Position numbers and translations under genes: made by a program. 64,000 nt of DNA from assembly GCA_009780915.1 (NCBI GenBank), contig WQZD01000009.1:1-64000 (forward strand). The letters run 5' to 3'. The stretch comes from Propionibacteriaceae bacterium. Lineage in GTDB: Bacteria; Actinomycetota; Actinomycetes; Propionibacteriales; Propionibacteriaceae. Numbering within the stretch: position 1 is the stretch's first letter; each line of letters starts with the position of its first letter. Below are positions 38,334 to 46,886 of this stretch, one piece after another. The notes beneath the pieces are model-generated. The model ran no database searches and was not told the origin of the DNA. It saw only the letters and a list, made by a program, of their open reading frames with translations.

Positions 38334-40109
38334 TCACATGGACTCGTACCAGGCCCGCATGGCGTCGAAGGCGAGTTTGCGATGGGTCTTGTCGGCGGAG
38401 AGCAGTCCCTTGCGGTTGTAGTACCCCTGGAGGTGGTGGGTGCGCCTCGGGCAGCGGAAGTCGTACAGGATCCACGGCGACACGCCCTGGATGTACGTGA
38501 TGTCCCTCAACACCTCGATCTGGCGGGCGTAGATCGACAGTTGGTGGTCCTCGGTGAACATCTCGTCCGCGTCGCCGCGCAACCCCGCTACCGCGTCGGC
38601 GCCGAACTCGCAGATGATCACGGGCTTGTCCAGATGGGAGTTGGAGAACAACAGAGGAAGTTTCGAGAAGTCCGGCTCGTACCACCCGTAGTACTCGTTG
38701 ACGCCGATGATGTCGAGGTGCGCGGCCAGCCTGTCCGCGATGGCCGGAACCGTGGGGTCGACCAGACACGCGGCGGAGACCGGACGGGTCGAGTCGAGGA
38801 CCCGGCAGGTGTCCACCAGACGCGACATGAAGCTCAGCCGCGCGTCGGAATCGGCGTTCTCGTTGCCCACCGACCAGATGATGACCGACGCCCGGTTGCG
38901 GTCGCGCAGGATCAGTTCTCGCAGTTGGTTCTCGGCGTCGGCGAAGACGCTCTCGTCGTCGAAGAGGATCGCCCAGTACACGGGCACCTCCTCCCACAGC
39001 AGGATGCCCACCTCGTCGGCCACCCGCGCGGCGAGGCCATTGTGGGGATAGTGCGCCAGACGCATATACACGCACCCCATCTGCTTGGCGATCGAGAAAT
39101 TCTCCCGGATCTCCGCCTCCGACAGAGTACGTCCATGCGCGACCGACTCCTCGTGCTGGCTCACGCCGGCGAGGAAGACGGGCGCGCCGTTGAGGAGGAT
39201 CGTGGACCCCTCCACGCGGATCTCACGGAAACCGATCCTGTCATGCCACTCGTCCTCCCCGTATCGGATCCAGACGTCGTAGAGGCGGGGATTCTCAGGG
39301 CTCCACAACGACGGCGACGCGTCGACCTCGACCGTGCCCACGCCGCCGACCACGTCGAAGGCCTGCTCGCATCCGAGGTCGGGGATCGACAGGTGGGCGG
39401 ACCCGTCCAGGTCCATGCCGTCGACCTCCACAGTCACGGCGATGGTGGAGAACGTGCGATCAGGAACCAGCGCCACGCTCGCCGTCCGGATGAAACAGCT
39501 CGGAACCCTCATCAGCGACACGCTGCGGTGCAAGCCGCCGTAGTTGAACCAGTCCGTGTTGTCCGTGGGCACCCGATCGGGGCGCCGAGAGTTGTTCACC
39601 ACGACGAGCAGCCTGTTCTTCTCGCACAGTCTGCCCGTCACCTCGATCTGGAAGGGTGTCGACGCGCCCTGGTGCCATCCGAGGTACTCCCCGTTGAGGA
39701 ACACGTACGCGGCGTAGGAGGCTGCGCCGAAGAGCAGGAACACACGCTCGCCGGGCGCCCCCGGCGCGACATCCACGTCCCGGACATAGACGGCCGACCC
39801 CTCGTACCAATACCACTGCGGATCCTGCAGGTTCCAGCAGGACGGCACCGGGATGGTCCCCCACTCATCGAAGCTGAAATCGACGGGATACGCCCGCCCG
39901 TCCTCGTCGCAGTAGTTCTCCTCGAACCAGCGCGCCCGCAGGCAGGCGTCGTACGGGTCGATGGCGAAGCGCCAGTCCCCGTCGAGGGACTCGCATACCC
40001 GTGCCCCCGGATCGATGAACGATGTGGCGTCGACGCACGGCTCGGCGTACGGGGCGAGATAATCCACACGGTGGATGTTGGCGGAGAAATTGGCAGGTTC
40101 GGCGTTCAT
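38334..40109 (-). CDS. GH2 beta-glucuronidase
   Basis: 591 residues, typical GusA length. It hydrolyses beta-D-glucuronides; with no signal peptide it acts in the cytosol. Jelly-roll sugar-binding domain (about 1-200), Ig-like domain (about 200-300), then the TIM barrel. Acid/base Glu417 is in V-G-N-E-N and nucleophile Glu501 in I-I-C-E-F-G-A-D; N-E-Y-Y-G-W-Y (471-477) is also present. N-R-K (565-567) matches the N-x-K pair that binds the carboxylate of glucuronic acid, so glucuronidase is favoured over galactosidase. I chose the ATG at 40109 (GAGGA 7 bases upstream) over a GTG two codons earlier. No uptake gene is adjacent. Confidence 0.9.
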   Translation of the reverse strand: MNAEPANFSANIHRVDYLAPYAEPCVDATSFIDPGARVCESLDGDWRFAIDPYDACLRARWFEENYCDEDGRAYPVDFSFDEWGTIPVPSCWNLQDPQWYWYEGSAVYVRDVDVAPGAPGERVFLLFGAASYAAYVFLNGEYLGWHQGASTPFQIEVTGRLCEKNRLLVVVNNSRRPDRVPTDNTDWFNYGGLHRSVSLMRVPSCFIRTASVALVPDRTFSTIAVTVEVDGMDLDGSAHLSIPDLGCEQAFDVVGGVGTVEVDASPSLWSPENPRLYDVWIRYGEDEWHDRIGFREIRVEGSTILLNGAPVFLAGVSQHEESVAHGRTLSEAEIRENFSIAKQMGCVYMRLAHYPHNGLAARVADEVGILLWEEVPVYWAILFDDESVFADAENQLRELILRDRNRASVIIWSVGNENADSDARLSFMSRLVDTCRVLDSTRPVSAACLVDPTVPAIADRLAAHLDIIGVNEYYGWYEPDFSKLPLLFSNSHLDKPVIICEFGADAVAGLRGDADEMFTEDHQLSIYARQIEVLRDITYIQGVSPWILYDFRCPRRTHHLQGYYNRKGLLSADKTHRKLAFDAMRAWYESM

Positions 40110-40295
40110 GGGCACATCCTCGAAGCTCAGCGTCAGGCCTTGACGCCGCGCGGCGCACGGCCCTTCGATGCCATTCTAGGCGAGCCCGTCTCGGGACAGC
40201 CGTCCCCTCCCATGTCTTGCCATACTCCCCCAGCCGCCCCTCCACGGACACATCCCATGAAAAACTTCCACCTGACGCCCGCCATGGACAACTGC

Positions 40296-40307: not shown

Positions 40308-41960
40308 ATGACAAAGAGCGTCTATGTTTTGGCCCCTGAGGCCTTGGTGGGAAAATCCGCTGTCGCGTTGGGGGCTGTCGCGGCGTTCCGCGACGCCGGC
40401 AGACGTGTGGGGGTCTTCCGACCCATCATCCGCACAGAGGGCCTCGACTCGGCCCTGGAGTCCCTCCTGGAGAGCGCCGACTCAGGCCAGACGTATGAGC
40501 AGGGGTACGGCGCCACCTACGCCGAGGTCCGCGAGGACACCGAGTCGGCGGTCACGACAATCATCGATCGCTACCAAAGCCTGCAGGCGCGCTTCGACGC
40601 CGTGGTGATCCTCGGCTCCGACTACTCCGATGTGATCTCCGCCACCGAGTACTCTCTCAACGCCGAGATCGCCGCCCATCTGAACACCCCGGCTCTGCTG
40701 GTGGTCTCCGCGCGCGGCGCATCGGCCTCCGACCTGCTGCACGCCGTCGAGTTCGCCCGACGCCAACTGACACACTCCTGCACCCCGTGCCTAGGAGTCG
40801 TCGCCATGGGCCTGGACTCGGCGAGCATCGAGGAGTACGACCAGGCCCTGGCACAGGTCGACCTTCCCGTGCTGCTCACGGTGCCCGGCCACATCGTGGC
40901 CGAGGTGGCCCTCCCCGCCACGTTCGCCCAGACCGTGTCGCAGATCCACTGCGACGTGCGCACGCCCCTGGCTTTCCAGTACGAGTTGATGTGCAAGGCC
41001 CGAGCCGACAAGCGGACCATCGTGCTGCCCGAGAGCGAGGACGACCGCATCCTGAGATCGGCCAGCATCCTTCTCCACCGCGACATCGCCAACCTGATCC
41101 TCCTCGGAGACGCGGACACCATCCATGCCCGTGCCGCCGAACTGGGCGTGGACCTCAGCAAGGCCAAGATCCAGAGCATGGACGACCCCGCCCTGACGGC
41201 GGACTTCGCCGAGGAGTACGCGCGACTGCGCGCTCACAAGGGGGTCACCATCGACCAGGCTCGCGAGACCCTGCGCGACGTGTCCTATTTCGGGACGATG
41301 ATGATCCACCAGGGGCTCGCGGACGGCATGGTCTCCGGCGCCATCCACACCACCGCCCACACGATCCGTCCATCCTTGGAGTTCATCAAGACCATGCCCG
41401 GAATCACCATGGTCTCCGGGTATTTCCTCATGTGTCTGGCCGACCGCGTCCTGGTGTTCGCGGACTGCGCCGTCACCCCCAACCCCACGCCGGAGAACCT
41501 GGCGGAGATCGCCATCGCCTCGGCCGCGACGGCAGCCTCCTTCGGGATCGAGCCCCGTGTGGCTCTGCTGTCCTACTCGACCGGCACCTCCGGCACCGGG
41601 CCCGACGTGGACATGGTCGCCGAGGCGACCCGCATCCTGCGCGAGCGCGCTCCGCAGTTGCCCACGGAGGGTCCGATCCAGTTCGACGCGGCCGTGGACG
41701 AGGTCGTCGCCAAGACGAAGCTCCCCGGCTCCACGGTGGCCGGGCACGCGACCGTCTTCATCTTCCCCGACTTGAACACGGGCAACACGACGTACAAAGC
41801 TGTCCAGCGGACCGCCAACGCCCTGGCCATCGGTCCCGTCCTCCAAGGATTGCGCAAGCCGGTCAACGACCTCTCGCGCGGCGCCTTGGTCGACGACATC
41901 GTCAACACGGTGGCCATCACGGCCATCCAGGCGCAGGCCGATCCAGCCGTGCCGTTCTGA
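40308..41960 (+). CDS. pta: Phosphate acetyltransferase (no DRTGG domain)
   Basis: 550 residues, against about 700 in E. coli. It interconverts acetyl-CoA and acetyl-phosphate. Residues 1 to about 210 are the BioD-like P-loop domain (A-P-E-A-L-V-G-K-S-A, 9-18). The catalytic PTA domain follows directly from about 222 (P-L-A-F-Q-Y-E-L, R-T-I-V-L-P-E) through S-Y-S-T-G-T-S-G and F-I-F-P-D-L-N-T-G-N to R-K-P-V-N-D-L-S-R-G. The DRTGG domain that normally sits between them is missing, as in some other actinobacterial Pta. It acts with ackA, 139 bp downstream. Confidence 0.95.
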   Translation: MTKSVYVLAPEALVGKSAVALGAVAAFRDAGRRVGVFRPIIRTEGLDSALESLLESADSGQTYEQGYGATYAEVREDTESAVTTIIDRYQSLQARFDAVVILGSDYSDVISATEYSLNAEIAAHLNTPALLVVSARGASASDLLHAVEFARRQLTHSCTPCLGVVAMGLDSASIEEYDQALAQVDLPVLLTVPGHIVAEVALPATFAQTVSQIHCDVRTPLAFQYELMCKARADKRTIVLPESEDDRILRSASILLHRDIANLILLGDADTIHARAAELGVDLSKAKIQSMDDPALTADFAEEYARLRAHKGVTIDQARETLRDVSYFGTMMIHQGLADGMVSGAIHTTAHTIRPSLEFIKTMPGITMVSGYFLMCLADRVLVFADCAVTPNPTPENLAEIAIASAATAASFGIEPRVALLSYSTGTSGTGPDVDMVAEATRILRERAPQLPTEGPIQFDAAVDEVVAKTKLPGSTVAGHATVFIFPDLNTGNTTYKAVQRTANALAIGPVLQGLRKPVNDLSRGALVDDIVNTVAITAIQAQADPAVPF

Positions 41961-42099: not shown

Positions 42100-43287
42100 A
42101 TGTCCATCCCCATTCTCGTTCTGAACTGCGGTTCATCGTCAGTGAAGTACCAAATGATCGACGTCGAGTCTGAAGAGGTGCTGGCCTCCGGATTGGTCGA
42201 GAAGATCGGTCTGGCCGACGGGAACCTCACCCATAAGACCGGCGGCGACGAGCACCGCATCGACCAGACCATCACCGACCACACCGCGGCGCTGCAGCTG
42301 GTCAGCCAGGCCTTCGACACCTGGGGCCCCGCCCTGCACTCGGTCGTGGCCGTCGGACACCGCACCGTCCATGGCGGCGACACCTTCCGCGACACGACCC
42401 TCATCACCGATGCGGTCATCGACGGCCTGATCCGGTTGTCCCCGCTGGCCCCCCTGCACAACCCGCCCGCCATCGCCGGCATCCGCGCCGCCCAGTCGAT
42501 GCTGCCCGACGTCCCCCACGTGGCCGTGTTCGACACGGCGTTCTTCTCGACCTTGCCGGCCGAGGCGTACACCTACGCCATCAATCGCGAGGTGGCCGAG
42601 AAGTACGGGATCCGCAAGTACGGCTTCCATGGCACTTCGCACAGCTTCGTGTCCAAGGCCGCGGCCGCGTTCATGGGCGCCGACCTGGCCGAGGTCAACC
42701 AGATCGTGTGCCACCTGGGCAATGGCGCGTCCATCTCGGCCGTGGCTGGCGGGATCGCCATCGAGGCGTCCATGGGGCTCACCCCTCTGGCCGGCCTGGT
42801 GATGGGCACCCGTTCCGGCGACGTCGACCCGGGCGTCTTCGCCTACCTCGAGCGCGAGGCCGGGATGACCTCCCAGCAGATCGACGACCTGCTGAACAAG
42901 AAGTCCGGCATGGCTGGGCTGGCGGACGGATCCTCGGACTTCCGTGACCTGTGGGCGAAGATGGACGCCGGCGACGAGCACGCCCAACTCGCCCACGACG
43001 TGTACGTCCACCGCCTGATCAGCTACATCGGCGCGTACATGGCCATCCTCGGCCGCACCGAGTACCTGGTCTTCACCGCCGGAGTCGGCGAGAACGCCAA
43101 CAGGACCAGAGCCATCGTCATCGACCGTCTGGCCGGCTTCGGCATCCGCCTGGACGCTGAGGCGAACAACTCCCGGATCAAGAGCCCCACGATCATCTCG
43201 ACTCCCGATTCAGCGGTCACCGTGCTCGTCGTGCCCACGAACGAGGAACTGGCCATGGCCCGCGAGACCTATCGGGTGACCCGCTGA
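42100..43287 (+). CDS. ackA: Acetate kinase
   Basis: 395 residues, normal length. It makes ATP and acetate from acetyl-phosphate, the last step of acetate fermentation. The ASKHA fold begins V-L-N-C-G-S-S-S-V-K-Y (7-17); later F-H-G-T-S-H and the adenosine loop near the C-terminus (F-T-A-G-V-G-E-N) are intact. A strong ribosome-binding site GGAAGGAGA precedes the ATG. The stop lies 1 base before the SDR gene, so the ether-lipid-like genes may be co-transcribed with it. Confidence 0.97.
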   Translation: MSIPILVLNCGSSSVKYQMIDVESEEVLASGLVEKIGLADGNLTHKTGGDEHRIDQTITDHTAALQLVSQAFDTWGPALHSVVAVGHRTVHGGDTFRDTTLITDAVIDGLIRLSPLAPLHNPPAIAGIRAAQSMLPDVPHVAVFDTAFFSTLPAEAYTYAINREVAEKYGIRKYGFHGTSHSFVSKAAAAFMGADLAEVNQIVCHLGNGASISAVAGGIAIEASMGLTPLAGLVMGTRSGDVDPGVFAYLEREAGMTSQQIDDLLNKKSGMAGLADGSSDFRDLWAKMDAGDEHAQLAHDVYVHRLISYIGAYMAILGRTEYLVFTAGVGENANRTRAIVIDRLAGFGIRLDAEANNSRIKSPTIISTPDSAVTVLVVPTNEELAMARETYRVTR

Positions 43288-43288
43288 C

Positions 43289-44059
43289 ATGTCCACTGCA
43301 CTCATCACGGGGGGTACTGTCGGCATCGGCCACGCCTTTGCCCAGGAGTTGGCCAAACAGGGGTGGGATTTGGTCTTGGCCTCCCGCGACGAGGCGGGCT
43401 TGCTCGCCGTCGCCCGGGATTTCCGTCGAACGTACGGGATCACGGTGGAGGTCATCCGTACCGATCTGTCGGTGAGGTCCGAGGTCCTCGCCCTCGCCGA
43501 CCGGTTGGAGGACCAGACACGTCCCATCGATCTGCTGGTCAACAACGCGGGGTTCGCCGTCCATGACTCCGTGGTGACCGGGGACATCGACCAGCACCAG
43601 CGAGCCATGGACGTGATGTGCATGGCCGTGCTGATCCTGTCGGGGGCGGCGGCCCGCGCCATGAAGGTCCGCGGCTTCGGCGCGATCCTGAATGTGACCA
43701 GTTCCTCCTCCGTCATCACCACCGGCCACTACTCGGCCATCAAGGCGTGGGCGACGGTCTACACCGAGGGCCTGGCCAATGAGTTGCGTGGGACCGGGGT
43801 CCGGGCCATGGCCGTCCTGCCCGGATGGGTCAAGACCGAATTCCACTCTCGCGGCGGCGTCAAGGCGCACAACCTGCCCGGAATCGTGTGGATCGACGCC
43901 GGACGCCTGGCGCGGGAAGCCCTCGACGACCTCGCCGCTGGTAAGGTGTTGTCTGTGCCGACCAAACGTTGGGCTTTCGCCGTCTGGGTCGGGCACGTCC
44001 TGCCCCGCACGGCGACACGCTGGTTGTCGCGCACCCTGACGAAGTCGAGAGAGACATGA
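43289..44059 (+). CDS. Short-chain dehydrogenase/reductase, candidate acyl/alkyl-DHAP reductase
   Basis: 256 residues, classical SDR. Cofactor loop T-G-G-T-V-G-I-G (7-14), N-N-A-G (85-88), Ser near 139 and the catalytic Tyr148/Lys152 in Y-S-A-I-K. Asn-type residues usual for the tetrad are in place, so it should be active with NAD(P)H. It starts 1 base after ackA and overlaps the PlsC start by four bases. Next to an acyltransferase and an alkyl-DHAP synthase homologue, a role in reducing acyl- or alkyl-DHAP is plausible (the mammalian PexRAP enzyme for this step is also an SDR), but this is inference. Confidence 0.85.
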   Translation: MSTALITGGTVGIGHAFAQELAKQGWDLVLASRDEAGLLAVARDFRRTYGITVEVIRTDLSVRSEVLALADRLEDQTRPIDLLVNNAGFAVHDSVVTGDIDQHQRAMDVMCMAVLILSGAAARAMKVRGFGAILNVTSSSSVITTGHYSAIKAWATVYTEGLANELRGTGVRAMAVLPGWVKTEFHSRGGVKAHNLPGIVWIDAGRLAREALDDLAAGKVLSVPTKRWAFAVWVGHVLPRTATRWLSRTLTKSRET

Positions 44060-45033
44060 CGAAGACTCCGGCGACCGACAACCCCGCCTCCTACCGTTCC
44101 GCGGTGAAGTCAGGGGTGCGTTTCGTCGCCCAAGATGTGGCGCTGAAATCCTTCGTGTGGTCGGCCTGCCGTGTGCAGGTCCATGGACGCGAGCTCTTGG
44201 CCAATGTCGAAGAGCCGTTCATCGTCATCGCCAATCACTCGTCGCATTTCGACGCCTCGCTCATCCTCGGCTCCCTCCCCCATCGTCTGAGCAAGCATGT
44301 CGCCACCGGCGCGGCCGCCGACTACTTCTTCGACAAGAAGCTCAAAGCCTTGACGACATCCTTGTTCTTCAACGCCTACCCCGTCGAACGCAAGGGTTCA
44401 CGCACCCATAAGGGGCTGACCGGGCGTCTATTGGAAGCGGGGATCCCGTTGATGATCTTCCCCGAAGGCACGCGCAGCCGCACAGGGGCCCTGGGGCAGT
44501 TCAAACCCGGCGTGGCGGCCCTGTCCATCTCCCGCGGTGTCCCCTGCATCCCCATGGCCCTCGTCGGCGCCTACGCCGCCTGGCCGTACAACCGTCCCGT
44601 GCCCAGGCCGAACCGTCCGCACATCCACGTGGTCATCGGGCATCCTCTCACGGCCGTCGCCGGGGAGACGGCCGACCAGTTCGCGGAGCGCATGCAGCGC
44701 AACGTCGCGGAGTTGTACAACACCACGGCGAAGGCGTACTCGATGCCCACCCTCGACGATTACGCCCGTACCGTGGCCGTGAAGAAGGCCGAGGACGACG
44801 CGCGTGCCTGGGAGACCGAGCAGGCCGAAGAGGCCAGGCTGGCCGAGCAATCCCCCACCGGCTCGCCGGAGGGCCAGGCCCTGGACGCTGTGGAAGGTTC
44901 CGTCGACTCCCCCTCGGACCGCGACGCCACGTCTCACACCCCCGACTCGGACCTGGGCGACGATCTCGCCTCGGGCCAGAAGAAGCCCCTCCACCGCCGG
45001 ATCTTCGCACGCAGATCAGCGAAAGACGCCTGA
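44056..45033 (+). CDS. 1-acyl-sn-glycerol-3-phosphate acyltransferase (PlsC family)
   Basis: 325 residues; the ATG at 44056 overlaps the SDR stop (ATGA). Membrane-associated acyltransferase with N-H-S-S-H-F-D (60-66, HX4D catalytic motif with His61 and Asp66) and F-P-E-G-T-R-S (135-141, phosphate binding). It would add an acyl chain at sn-2 of lysophosphatidate or its alkyl analogue. The C-terminal about 85 residues after the catalytic domain are acidic, low-complexity and end in a basic stretch, not part of the enzyme core. Part of the SDR-PlsC-AGPS set. Confidence 0.9.
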   Translation: MTKTPATDNPASYRSAVKSGVRFVAQDVALKSFVWSACRVQVHGRELLANVEEPFIVIANHSSHFDASLILGSLPHRLSKHVATGAAADYFFDKKLKALTTSLFFNAYPVERKGSRTHKGLTGRLLEAGIPLMIFPEGTRSRTGALGQFKPGVAALSISRGVPCIPMALVGAYAAWPYNRPVPRPNRPHIHVVIGHPLTAVAGETADQFAERMQRNVAELYNTTAKAYSMPTLDDYARTVAVKKAEDDARAWETEQAEEARLAEQSPTGSPEGQALDAVEGSVDSPSDRDATSHTPDSDLGDDLASGQKKPLHRRIFARRSAKDA

Positions 45034-45162
45034 CCGGCACAGGCGAATTTTCGGACAGAGGCCATTTCGGTTGCGTGCCCTGGAAAGATGGGACACGACA
45101 CGACCATCCACCACCCGCACCACGGCGGACCTGGAGGACATGTCAGAAAAGGGAAGTCACTC

Positions 45163-46818
45163 ATGGAGACAGTCAAGCATCAGAAATGGTGGGGTTGGGG
45201 CGAAGAGGGCCTCGAATTCACCTACGAGGACAAGCCGAAGTTCGCGGGTTTCCTCCTCGACAACGTCGGCGTGGACGTCCATGACTCCGCCAGCGCCACC
45301 CCCGACTTCGACGCTCTGCCCGTTCCCGAGCCAGTCCTGAAGCCCGCGCTGAAGAAGGCCTTGGCGGCCATCGTGGGCGAGGAGAACCTGTCCACGGACA
45401 CGGAGTGCCGCCTGGTCCACTCCTTCGGCCGTGGCGTGGTGGATCTCATCCGTCTACGCCAGCCCGACCTGGGCCGCATGTGCGACGTGGTGTGCTACCC
45501 CGGATCGGAAGACGAGGTCGTCGCGCTGATGCGAGCCGCCGTCAAATCACGCTCGGTGCTCATCCCCTATGGCGGTGGCTCCAACATCGTCGGCGCCCTG
45601 AGCGCTCCGAGGGGCGAGACCCGTACGGTCATCAGCGTCGACATGGGCCGGATGAACACCGTCCTGTCCATCGACGCCGCGTCCGGCCTGGCCCTGATCC
45701 AAGCGGGCGTCCTCGGCCCCGACATGGAAGAGCAGTTGAACGCGCAGGGCTGGACCATGGGCCACTTCCCCGATTCCTTCACCTGGTCCACCCTCGGCGG
45801 CTGGATCGCCACCCGCAGCTCCGGCATGCAGTCGGACAAGTACGGCGACATCGCCGACATGACACGTGGTCTGCGGATGGTCACCCCCGACGGGATCCTC
45901 GAGCTCCACCCTCTGCCCTCGACGGCCAGCGGCCCCAGCGTGCGCGAGATGGTGCTCGGGTCGGAGGGCCGGCTCGGGATCATCACGAGCGCGTGGATGC
46001 AGGTCCACCGCGTCCCCGCCAAGCGGACCATCCAGGGGTACTTCTTCCCCACCTACGAAGCGGGACTGAAGGCCATGGAGGAGATCGCCGCGTCCGACGC
46101 GGCCCCCAGCATCACCCGCGTCATGGACAAGTACGAGACCGCGTTCTCCATCGCCAACGGCAAGCAGTCCTCGCCGATGGACCACTTCCTCAACCAGGCC
46201 GTCCAGAAGCTGATGTCCATGAAGGGTTGGAACCTCGACGACGCCTGCCTGTCGCTGATCGGCTTCGAGGGGTCGAGTCGGCATGTCAGGTACGAGAAGG
46301 GGCTGGTCGACGCGATCATCTCCCGCAACGGCGGCATGGGGGTCGGCACGGGACCAGGAACCCTGTACGACCAGAAGAAGTACGACGTGCCGTACATCCG
46401 CGACTTCCTCCTCGACCGTGGCATCCCCGCCGACGTGTCGGAGACCGCCACCCCGTGGAGGTACATGGCGCAGATGCACGACGAGACCATCGCGGCGGCC
46501 CATCGCGCCATGGAGCGGGCCGGGGTCCAGGGGTACGTCATGTGCCACCTGTCCCACAGCTACCATGCGGGCGCCTGCCAGTACTTCACCTTCGCGGTGA
46601 ACGACTCGTCGAACTCGATGCTGGACACCTACTACACGGTCAAGAAGGCCATCCAGCAGTCCTTCATGGACAACCACGGCACAGTGTCCCACCACCACGG
46701 CGTCGGCGTCGAGCACGCCGCCTGGCTCCCCCAGGACATCTCCACGACGGGCATCCGCTTCCAAGGGCTCCTCTTCGACGGCGTCGACCCCGACCACAAC
46801 CTCTGCCCCAGGCCCTGA
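45163..46818 (+). CDS. FAD-linked oxidase of the alkyl-dihydroxyacetonephosphate synthase (AGPS) family
   Basis: 551 residues. AGPS swaps the acyl chain of acyl-DHAP for a long-chain alcohol, forming the ether bond. FAD loop P-Y-G-G-G-S-N-I-V-G (135-144); G-H-F-P-D-S-F-T-W-S-T-L-G-G-W (200-214) and R-S-S-G-M-Q-S-D-K-Y-G (218-228) closely follow the AGPS pattern; H-S-Y-H-A-G-A-C (near 467) carries the expected catalytic Tyr, and S-H-H-H-G-V-G (509-515) is the AGPS His loop. These go beyond a generic D-lactate/glycolate oxidase. The start at 45163 has AAAAGGGA about 9 bases upstream. The gene lies 129 bp after plsC and ends at a strong terminator. Confidence 0.85.
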   Translation: METVKHQKWWGWGEEGLEFTYEDKPKFAGFLLDNVGVDVHDSASATPDFDALPVPEPVLKPALKKALAAIVGEENLSTDTECRLVHSFGRGVVDLIRLRQPDLGRMCDVVCYPGSEDEVVALMRAAVKSRSVLIPYGGGSNIVGALSAPRGETRTVISVDMGRMNTVLSIDAASGLALIQAGVLGPDMEEQLNAQGWTMGHFPDSFTWSTLGGWIATRSSGMQSDKYGDIADMTRGLRMVTPDGILELHPLPSTASGPSVREMVLGSEGRLGIITSAWMQVHRVPAKRTIQGYFFPTYEAGLKAMEEIAASDAAPSITRVMDKYETAFSIANGKQSSPMDHFLNQAVQKLMSMKGWNLDDACLSLIGFEGSSRHVRYEKGLVDAIISRNGGMGVGTGPGTLYDQKKYDVPYIRDFLLDRGIPADVSETATPWRYMAQMHDETIAAAHRAMERAGVQGYVMCHLSHSYHAGACQYFTFAVNDSSNSMLDTYYTVKKAIQQSFMDNHGTVSHHHGVGVEHAAWLPQDISTTGIRFQGLLFDGVDPDHNLCPRP

Positions 46819-46854: not shown

Positions 46855-46886
46855 ATGAGTCCCCTGCGTGATCGCAGGGGACTCAT
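46855..46886. terminator. Perfect bidirectional terminator hairpin
   Basis: A 14-bp perfect stem (46855-46868 with 46873-46886) around the loop TGAT, containing GAGTCCCCTGCG and its complement. It sits between the stop codons of the AGPS-like gene (plus) and secY (minus), so it should end both transcripts. Confidence 0.85.

Follow-up and report, generated by a model that had tools for sequence, protein, structure and literature searches.

The 64,000-nucleotide stretch of a Propionibacteriaceae genome analyzed here (the window) carries, in one row, genes for a short-chain dehydrogenase/reductase (SDR), a PlsC-family acyltransferase, and a homologue of alkyl-dihydroxyacetone phosphate (alkyl-DHAP) synthase, AGPS. 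We consider it reasonably probable that this homologue is an FAD-dependent alkyl-DHAP synthase that acts with the adjacent SDR and PlsC in O-alkyl lipid synthesis. Judged from sequence, the locus appears to be a real bacterial AGPS module, in which the enzyme family is given by its sequence and the pathway would work like the animal route. In bacteria, ether-lipid synthesis is generally attributed to PlsA/PlsR among anaerobes and to ElbD/CarF among myxobacteria. A first-pass annotation of the window had pointed out the three families side by side, and all three genes were found intact and in that order, with the AGPS start moved to 45163. The window genome (2.78 Mb, 45 contigs, 99.4% complete) is referred to as G000. 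Other G numbers denote the genomes compared and L numbers the loci read; G178 is the one congener that carries AGPS.

The identity of the FAD protein was analyzed by comparison with solved structures and family models. Its best solved match was Dictyostelium AGPS (2uuu, residues 75-572, E 1.5e-113), and another AGPS match was the peroxisomal enzyme of guinea pig (4bby, residues 100-570, E 4.1e-79). Alignments with AGPS structures spanned 470-500 residues (1e-79 to 1e-113), whereas glycolate, D-lactate, and D-2-hydroxyglutarate enzymes aligned to the N-terminal FAD half alone, at ~1e-19 or weaker. The protein combines FAD_binding_4 and FAD-oxidase_C domains with full-length similarity to solved AGPS, as is characteristic of the family. 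The diagnostic motifs named in the first-pass annotation were present, with GHFPDS at residue 225, SSGM at 244, and HHHGVG at 535 (residues are numbered from the ATG at 45088). In Dictyostelium AGPS, R352, R447, and Y508 are important for catalysis, according to a review (PMC3509576). These residues correspond to R344, R438, and Y499 here, as mapped through the alignment printed with the structure match, the offset being three in each case. None of the three residues varied in any of the 78 aligned rows, nor did the H of GHFPDS or the three H of HHHGVG. The closest AGPS relative was in a metagenome-assembled genome (MAG), 'Propionibacteriaceae bacterium isolate Ehx436_bin24'.

The FAD protein could instead oxidize or dehydrogenate 2-hydroxyacids (D-lactate, glycolate, or D-2-hydroxyglutarate) and have unrelated neighbors; action as a 2-hydroxyacid oxidase was one of the outcomes that, in the first-pass annotation, would overturn its proposal. 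FAD_binding_4 and FAD-oxidase_C are common to both kinds of enzyme, the NCBIfam model glcD gave a weak match, and two other FAD-oxidase_C proteins are encoded in G000. However, the glcD score was 108.3 bits against a curated cut-off of 567.9, the hydroxyacid-type enzymes matched only the N-terminal FAD part while AGPS structures matched nearly the full length, the three catalytic residues were invariant, and AGPS paired strictly with a fatty acyl-CoA reductase in two families (below). We rejected the oxidase identity, which we regard as very improbable. By sequence, the window protein is a true AGPS-family member and not a GlcD-type oxidase, and AGPS chemistry is likely in the window organism.

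Next, gene order was compared at 95 loci, namely 29 best relatives, 20 stretches picked for diversity from 119 genomes with a match, 42 of 43 named loci, and four loci from a phylum sample; together they represent 81 distinct AGPS loci. Where at least 1.4 kb upstream of AGPS was available (n = 76), an SDR gene lay on the same strand at 70 loci and a PlsC gene at 65. With at least 6 kb upstream (n = 47), SDR was found at 46, PlsC at 42, ackA at 13, and pta at 11, and a fatty acyl-CoA reductase gene was present within 12 kb at 22. The association of SDR, PlsC, and AGPS is far beyond chance, and the conservation of the three-gene order, which the first-pass annotation had suggested checking, was borne out. 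The annotation had also read the animal enzymes 'in this order of chemistry', a reading we do not retain, since gene order gives no such inference. Named carriers of the order include Tessaracoccus, Propionicicella, Jiangella, Raineyella, Kocuria, and Brachybacterium. The SDR was still beside AGPS without PlsC at L049 (the Nigerium contig of L078), L053, L079, L081, and L082 (Propioniciclava). Six loci were without SDR: L050, with a divergent AGPS of 34% identity, L072 and L075, which are named MAGs labelled Solirubrobacteraceae and Acidimicrobiaceae, and L134-L136. In all of these except L050 the AGPS is of the window type (53-56% identical) and belongs to actinobacteria of other lineages, which suggests transfer or different partners.

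The catalytic motifs of the two neighboring proteins were likewise conserved. In the SDR, the Y and K of YxxxK were kept in all 79 aligned rows; in the NNAG motif, the first N was found in 76 rows and the remaining three letters in 79. The best NCBIfam model was mycolate_SDR, at 141 bits against a cut-off of 380, and the gene also occurs without AGPS (below). The SDR is a candidate alkyl-DHAP reductase, a role that is probable if the pathway works like the animal route. In PlsC, the H and D of HX4D were present in 68/68 aligned rows. This protein was closest to 1-acylglycerol-3-phosphate acyltransferases, with a family-model score below the cut-off, and is a candidate for sn-2 acylation of alkyl- or acyl-glycerol-3-phosphate or for acylation of DHAP.

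A fatty alcohol donor pathway was then considered. The first-pass annotation had predicted a fatty acyl-CoA reductase (FAR) elsewhere in the genome; such an enzyme does accompany AGPS in two families, but the window genome has no FAR of this type. A conserved protein of 750-800 aa adjoins the AGPS genes in Jiangella, Kocuria, Brachybacterium, and Propioniciclava. Its domain matches were NAD_binding_4 (1.5e-48), a weakly matching 'Sterile' domain, and, at the C terminus, a HAD phosphatase-like domain. NAD_binding_4 was found in all four FAR proteins scanned, and the structure match was the fatty acyl-CoA reductase 7eoz (1.5e-54, residues 10-519). By these matches, the neighbor is a FAR fused to a HAD domain (FAR-HAD). 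Among 198 Propionibacteriaceae genomes, in which AGPS was called at E <= 1e-60 and five weaker matches (1e-30 to 1e-60) were dropped, AGPS was present in 114 and FAR in 112: 111 genomes had both, three AGPS alone, one FAR alone, and 83 neither. The three with AGPS alone were G000, G178, and G129, and the AGPS of G129 begins at a contig end. In a second family (f9; 80 genomes, one per genus), window-type AGPS (52-57% identical) and FAR occurred in the identical 21 genera, and three divergent AGPS (30-35%) were without FAR. The arrangement FAR(-)SDR(+)PlsC(+)AGPS(+) was observed at 20 of 20 f9 loci read (of 21), each from a different genus. Any p-value for this co-occurrence would be inflated by shared ancestry, but the f9 sample holds one genome per genus, and within Propionibacteriaceae AGPS and FAR were patchy together in two genera (g23 and g24). 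FAR thus tracks AGPS in two families, which argues for an alcohol-using AGPS chemistry and against a hydroxyacid oxidase.

Most Propionibacteriaceae FAR loci read were unlinked to AGPS and adjoined hisA and a Lar_N protein. These neighbors were rejected as extra pathway genes, because no lipid genes were among them. FAR-HAD lies beside hisA at, for example, L111:2376-4799 and across L110-L126, and the HAD domain is similar to histidinol-phosphatase models, with scores under their cut-offs. Since FAR is unlinked to AGPS and next to hisA, this domain may have a second role in making histidine. Directly after FAR, a ~510-aa Lar_N (lactate racemase N-terminal) protein is encoded at L111:4792-6318 and at equivalent positions in several genera. 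Wax esters were also considered as the fate of the alcohol and were rejected: WS/DGAT homologues were found in 81/198 genomes, none of them G000, and in 57 of 114 genomes with AGPS versus 24 of 84 without, a modest association far weaker than that of FAR.

Several results weigh against an O-alkyl lipid pathway at this locus. A FAR-HAD search of G000 and G178 gave no match, and a PF07993 search gave four weak matches in each genome, the best in G000 at 6.0e-13 in a 362-aa frame. The best match, on contig C13, was rejected as a FAR, as the 352-aa open reading frame (ORF), which adjoins an IspD-like ORF, was judged by eye to encode a sugar-nucleotide epimerase. A fatty acyl-CoA reductase was thus not found in G000 by these searches, and a reductase of another kind may be present. 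Across the 19 genomes of the window genus, whose membership was inferred from the listed rows, FAR was found in 0 and AGPS in two, and the pathway could therefore be in decay. Among 396 genomes sampled across the phylum, 92 carried AGPS relatives (mostly 30-39% identical) and 81 carried FAR, with an overlap of only nine by eye; just one of the six AGPS of at least 55% identity was accompanied by FAR. No dedicated DHAP acyltransferase was identified among the three PF01553 proteins of G000. Moreover, the SDR-PlsC pair occurred in all seven AGPS-less genomes of a 16-genome acyltransferase panel (SDR 48-76% and PlsC 49-74% identical to the window proteins), behind ackA in five of them. Finally, G000 carries a predicted plasmalogen-synthase homologue, so that the clostridial route appears to be present too.

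As the SDR-PlsC pair occurs without AGPS, it is not dedicated to AGPS and has an AGPS-independent use. It could accordingly be a general bacterial DHAP-route module for ordinary phospholipids or PlsA-type plasmalogens, with AGPS as a nearly redundant add-on being lost with FAR in this genus. The counts in the genus fit this explanation, with PlsA-like proteins in 16 of the 19 genomes, as does the congener G189 (L177), whose row metG-pta-ackA-SDR-PlsC-secY is that of the window minus AGPS; a permissive search found no AGPS remnant in G189. Nevertheless, the window AGPS is intact, keeps all catalytic residues, and is as constrained as pta and ackA. Between G000 and G178, pN/pS was 0.30 for AGPS, 0.32 for SDR and PlsC, 0.34 for ackA, and 0.37 for pta; the AGPS value is like that of its neighbors, and therefore no relaxation is indicated. 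AGPS identity tracked ackA identity within 3.6 points at 15/15 loci, and horizontal gain of AGPS in G000 is accordingly not favored. Because of the pN/pS values and the ackA-like identities, AGPS appears to be an inherited gene on which selection still acts. In addition, the SDR stays beside AGPS where PlsC is gone, and acyl-DHAP reductase activity in these bacteria is itself putative. We take the general module to be a serious contender that falls a little short of probable. In other organisms, the SDRs Ayr1 and DHRS7B are held responsible for the reduction of acyl-DHAP or alkyl-DHAP (PMC13256971). The simplest unified view would be that the SDR reduces acyl-DHAP or alkyl-DHAP, with AGPS and FAR as an optional ether module on top. 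The proposal of the first-pass annotation that the three families together mark an AGPS route is therefore upheld for the AGPS identity and the conserved order, but the SDR-PlsC pair is not specific to that route.

The plasmalogen-synthase homologue is a fused protein of 1521 aa, in which two activase domains and DUF2229 are combined in one long chain. We take this to be the PlsA/PlsR make-up. A figure legend naming Act1 and Act2 supports the activase-domain make-up (PMC12838417), and PlsA/PlsR orthologues have been described in Propionibacteriales (PMC9702350). The Pfam search used for PlsA-like proteins matched in the Lactococcus control. Dimethyl acetals are known from chemotaxonomic reports on some Propionibacteriaceae. 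PlsA-like proteins were found in 104 of the 198 genomes: 33 carried AGPS and PlsA, 81 AGPS only, 71 PlsA only, and 13 neither, against ~40 with neither expected under independence, a comparison in which relatedness and oxygen lifestyle are uncontrolled. PF10520 (CarF/PEDS1) matched in 0/198 genomes, but the control genome was equally silent. The first-pass annotation had set the AGPS route apart from the clostridial one. The proteins are indeed unrelated and the loci unlinked, but both kinds of homologue occur in the same genome.

The PlsC of the row could also be the DHAP acyltransferase feeding AGPS, with another PlsC performing the sn-2 step, so that the four-gene locus of the relatives would constitute a complete route. 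In Myxococcus, the FAR encoded in the AGPS operon includes a GNPAT-like acyltransferase domain (PMC9131029), and FAR and DHAPAT form one protein in protists (PMC13256971). PlsC lay between SDR and AGPS at 20/20 f9 loci, and at least one further PF01553 protein was encoded in each of the nine AGPS-bearing panel genomes. The sequence is, however, nearest 1-acylglycerol-3-phosphate acyltransferases, PlsC is missing beside AGPS at the five loci named above, and it occurs elsewhere without AGPS. PF01553 counts did not separate panel genomes with and without AGPS. We therefore hold this assignment to be doubtful.

For the favored reading, in which AGPS, SDR, and PlsC make O-alkyl lipids, we infer every reaction, the substrates of SDR and PlsC, the sources of alcohol and acyl-DHAP, and the lipid product as follows. 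AGPS would bind the DHAP unit of acyl-DHAP on its flavin and free the fatty acid, after which a fatty alcohol would attack the flavin-bound DHAP unit to give 1-O-alkyl-DHAP. The SDR would reduce the sn-2 ketone of alkyl-DHAP, or of acyl-DHAP where AGPS is absent, to the glycerol-3-phosphate form, and PlsC would acylate the product. The alcohol would come from the FAR-HAD fusion in most relatives. As FAR is missing in the window organism, its alcohol may be supplied by another reductase, by the aldehyde from vinyl-ether (PlsA-type) lipids, or externally. Actual O-alkyl lipids in this organism seem to us somewhat likelier present than absent. A broader modular actinobacterial system can be imagined, with SDR-PlsC as a core DHAP route, AGPS and FAR-HAD as a plug-in for O-alkyl lipids, PlsA as an alternative anaerobic route, and the FAR-less window lineage fed by plasmalogen-recycled or imported alcohols, but we think it less likely than not.

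Table 1. Features of the AGPS row in the window and the PlsA/PlsR-type protein of the same genome.
Feature	Location	Strand	Domain match or remark
pta, phosphate acetyltransferase	40308..41960	+	Pfam PTA_PTB 2.6e-125; first gene of row
ackA, acetate kinase	42100..43287	+	Pfam Acetate_kinase 3.1e-145
SDR, candidate acyl/alkyl-DHAP reductase, 256 aa	43289..44059	+	Pfam adh_short 1.7e-37
PlsC-family acyltransferase	44056..45033	+	Pfam Acyltransferase PF01553 2.9e-19
AGPS, alkyl-DHAP synthase family, 551 aa	45163..46818	+	Pfam FAD_binding_4 2.1e-34, FAD-oxidase_C 5.4e-30
14-bp inverted repeat between AGPS and convergent secY	46855..46886	listed on -	consensus scan
PlsA/PlsR-type fused protein, 1521 aa	G000 contig C3, L145:3804-8369		CoA_E_activ 3.7e-66 (2 stretches), DUF2229 5.7e-81

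The row on the plus strand runs pta-ackA-SDR-PlsC-AGPS and is followed by a hairpin and a convergent gene, which we take by eye to be secY (Table 1). The end of ackA at 43287 is one base before the SDR start, and the PlsC start overlaps the SDR stop by 4 bp. The first in-frame ATG of the AGPS frame, 45088, would give a protein of 576 aa. The AGPS of G178 begins at the conserved peptide ME(T/V)VKHQKWWGWG, which corresponds to 45163 in the window, and the sequence upstream of this ATG, AAGGGAAG, is a good ribosome site. The start was corrected to 45163 because the start peptide of the congener aligns there and the ribosome site precedes the ATG. The hairpin is likely a terminator and is by itself no evidence of function. 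The pta gene is probably not a part of the lipid function. The pta and ackA genes also precede the SDR-PlsC(-AGPS) row in several genera (L034, L036, L041, and others). Upstream of pta, a glycosidase-like ORF at 38334-40115 (-) was read by eye as of the beta-glucuronidase/galactosidase type.

Three known systems were compared with this locus. Like the animal and protist route (FAR, GNPAT/DHAPAT, AGPS, and an SDR-type alkyl-DHAP reductase), it has an AGPS with the catalytic residues of the family, accompanied by an SDR and an acyltransferase, and its relatives add a FAR. In contrast to that route, the genes here are clustered in a bacterium without peroxisomes, the fusion partner of the actinobacterial FAR is a HAD phosphatase-like domain and not an acyltransferase, FAR is missing in G000, and no DHAPAT is assigned. 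The closest bacterial precedent is MXAN_1676-1675-1674 of Myxococcus xanthus, an AGPS operon with FAR and acyltransferase functions that is reported to contribute a minor share of ether lipids beside the ElbD pathway (PMC9131029). In actinobacteria, however, SDR and PlsC are encoded by two genes of their own, and any FAR takes the form of a FAR-HAD fusion that is often unlinked. Clostridial PlsA/PlsR, with its homologue in G000, likewise yields sn-1 ether lipids, but by direct anaerobic reduction of a diacyl lipid, using neither fatty alcohol nor acyl-DHAP (PMC9702350). As judged by titles and abstract starts, the actinobacterial FAR-SDR-PlsC-AGPS locus was not recognized in the open-licence literature (CC0, CC BY, CC BY-SA). 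A bacterial AGPS operon is thus already known from Myxococcus; the separate SDR and PlsC plus the FAR-HAD fusion in actinobacteria appear new against the literature searched.

With a conserved four-gene FAR-SDR-PlsC-AGPS locus spread over several families of actinobacteria, a widespread ether-lipid route resembling that of animals would join those known from bacteria; cultivable carriers are Kocuria, Jiangella, Tessaracoccus, and Brachybacterium. The locus would also supply clustered bacterial candidates for alkyl-DHAP reductase, the step for which sequence is the poorest guide. Because AGPS and PlsA nearly alternate within one family, one can ask whether its members share a need for sn-1 ether lipids that two unrelated chemistries satisfy. 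Among the actinobacterial relatives of the window organism, ether lipids of the animal style may be common.

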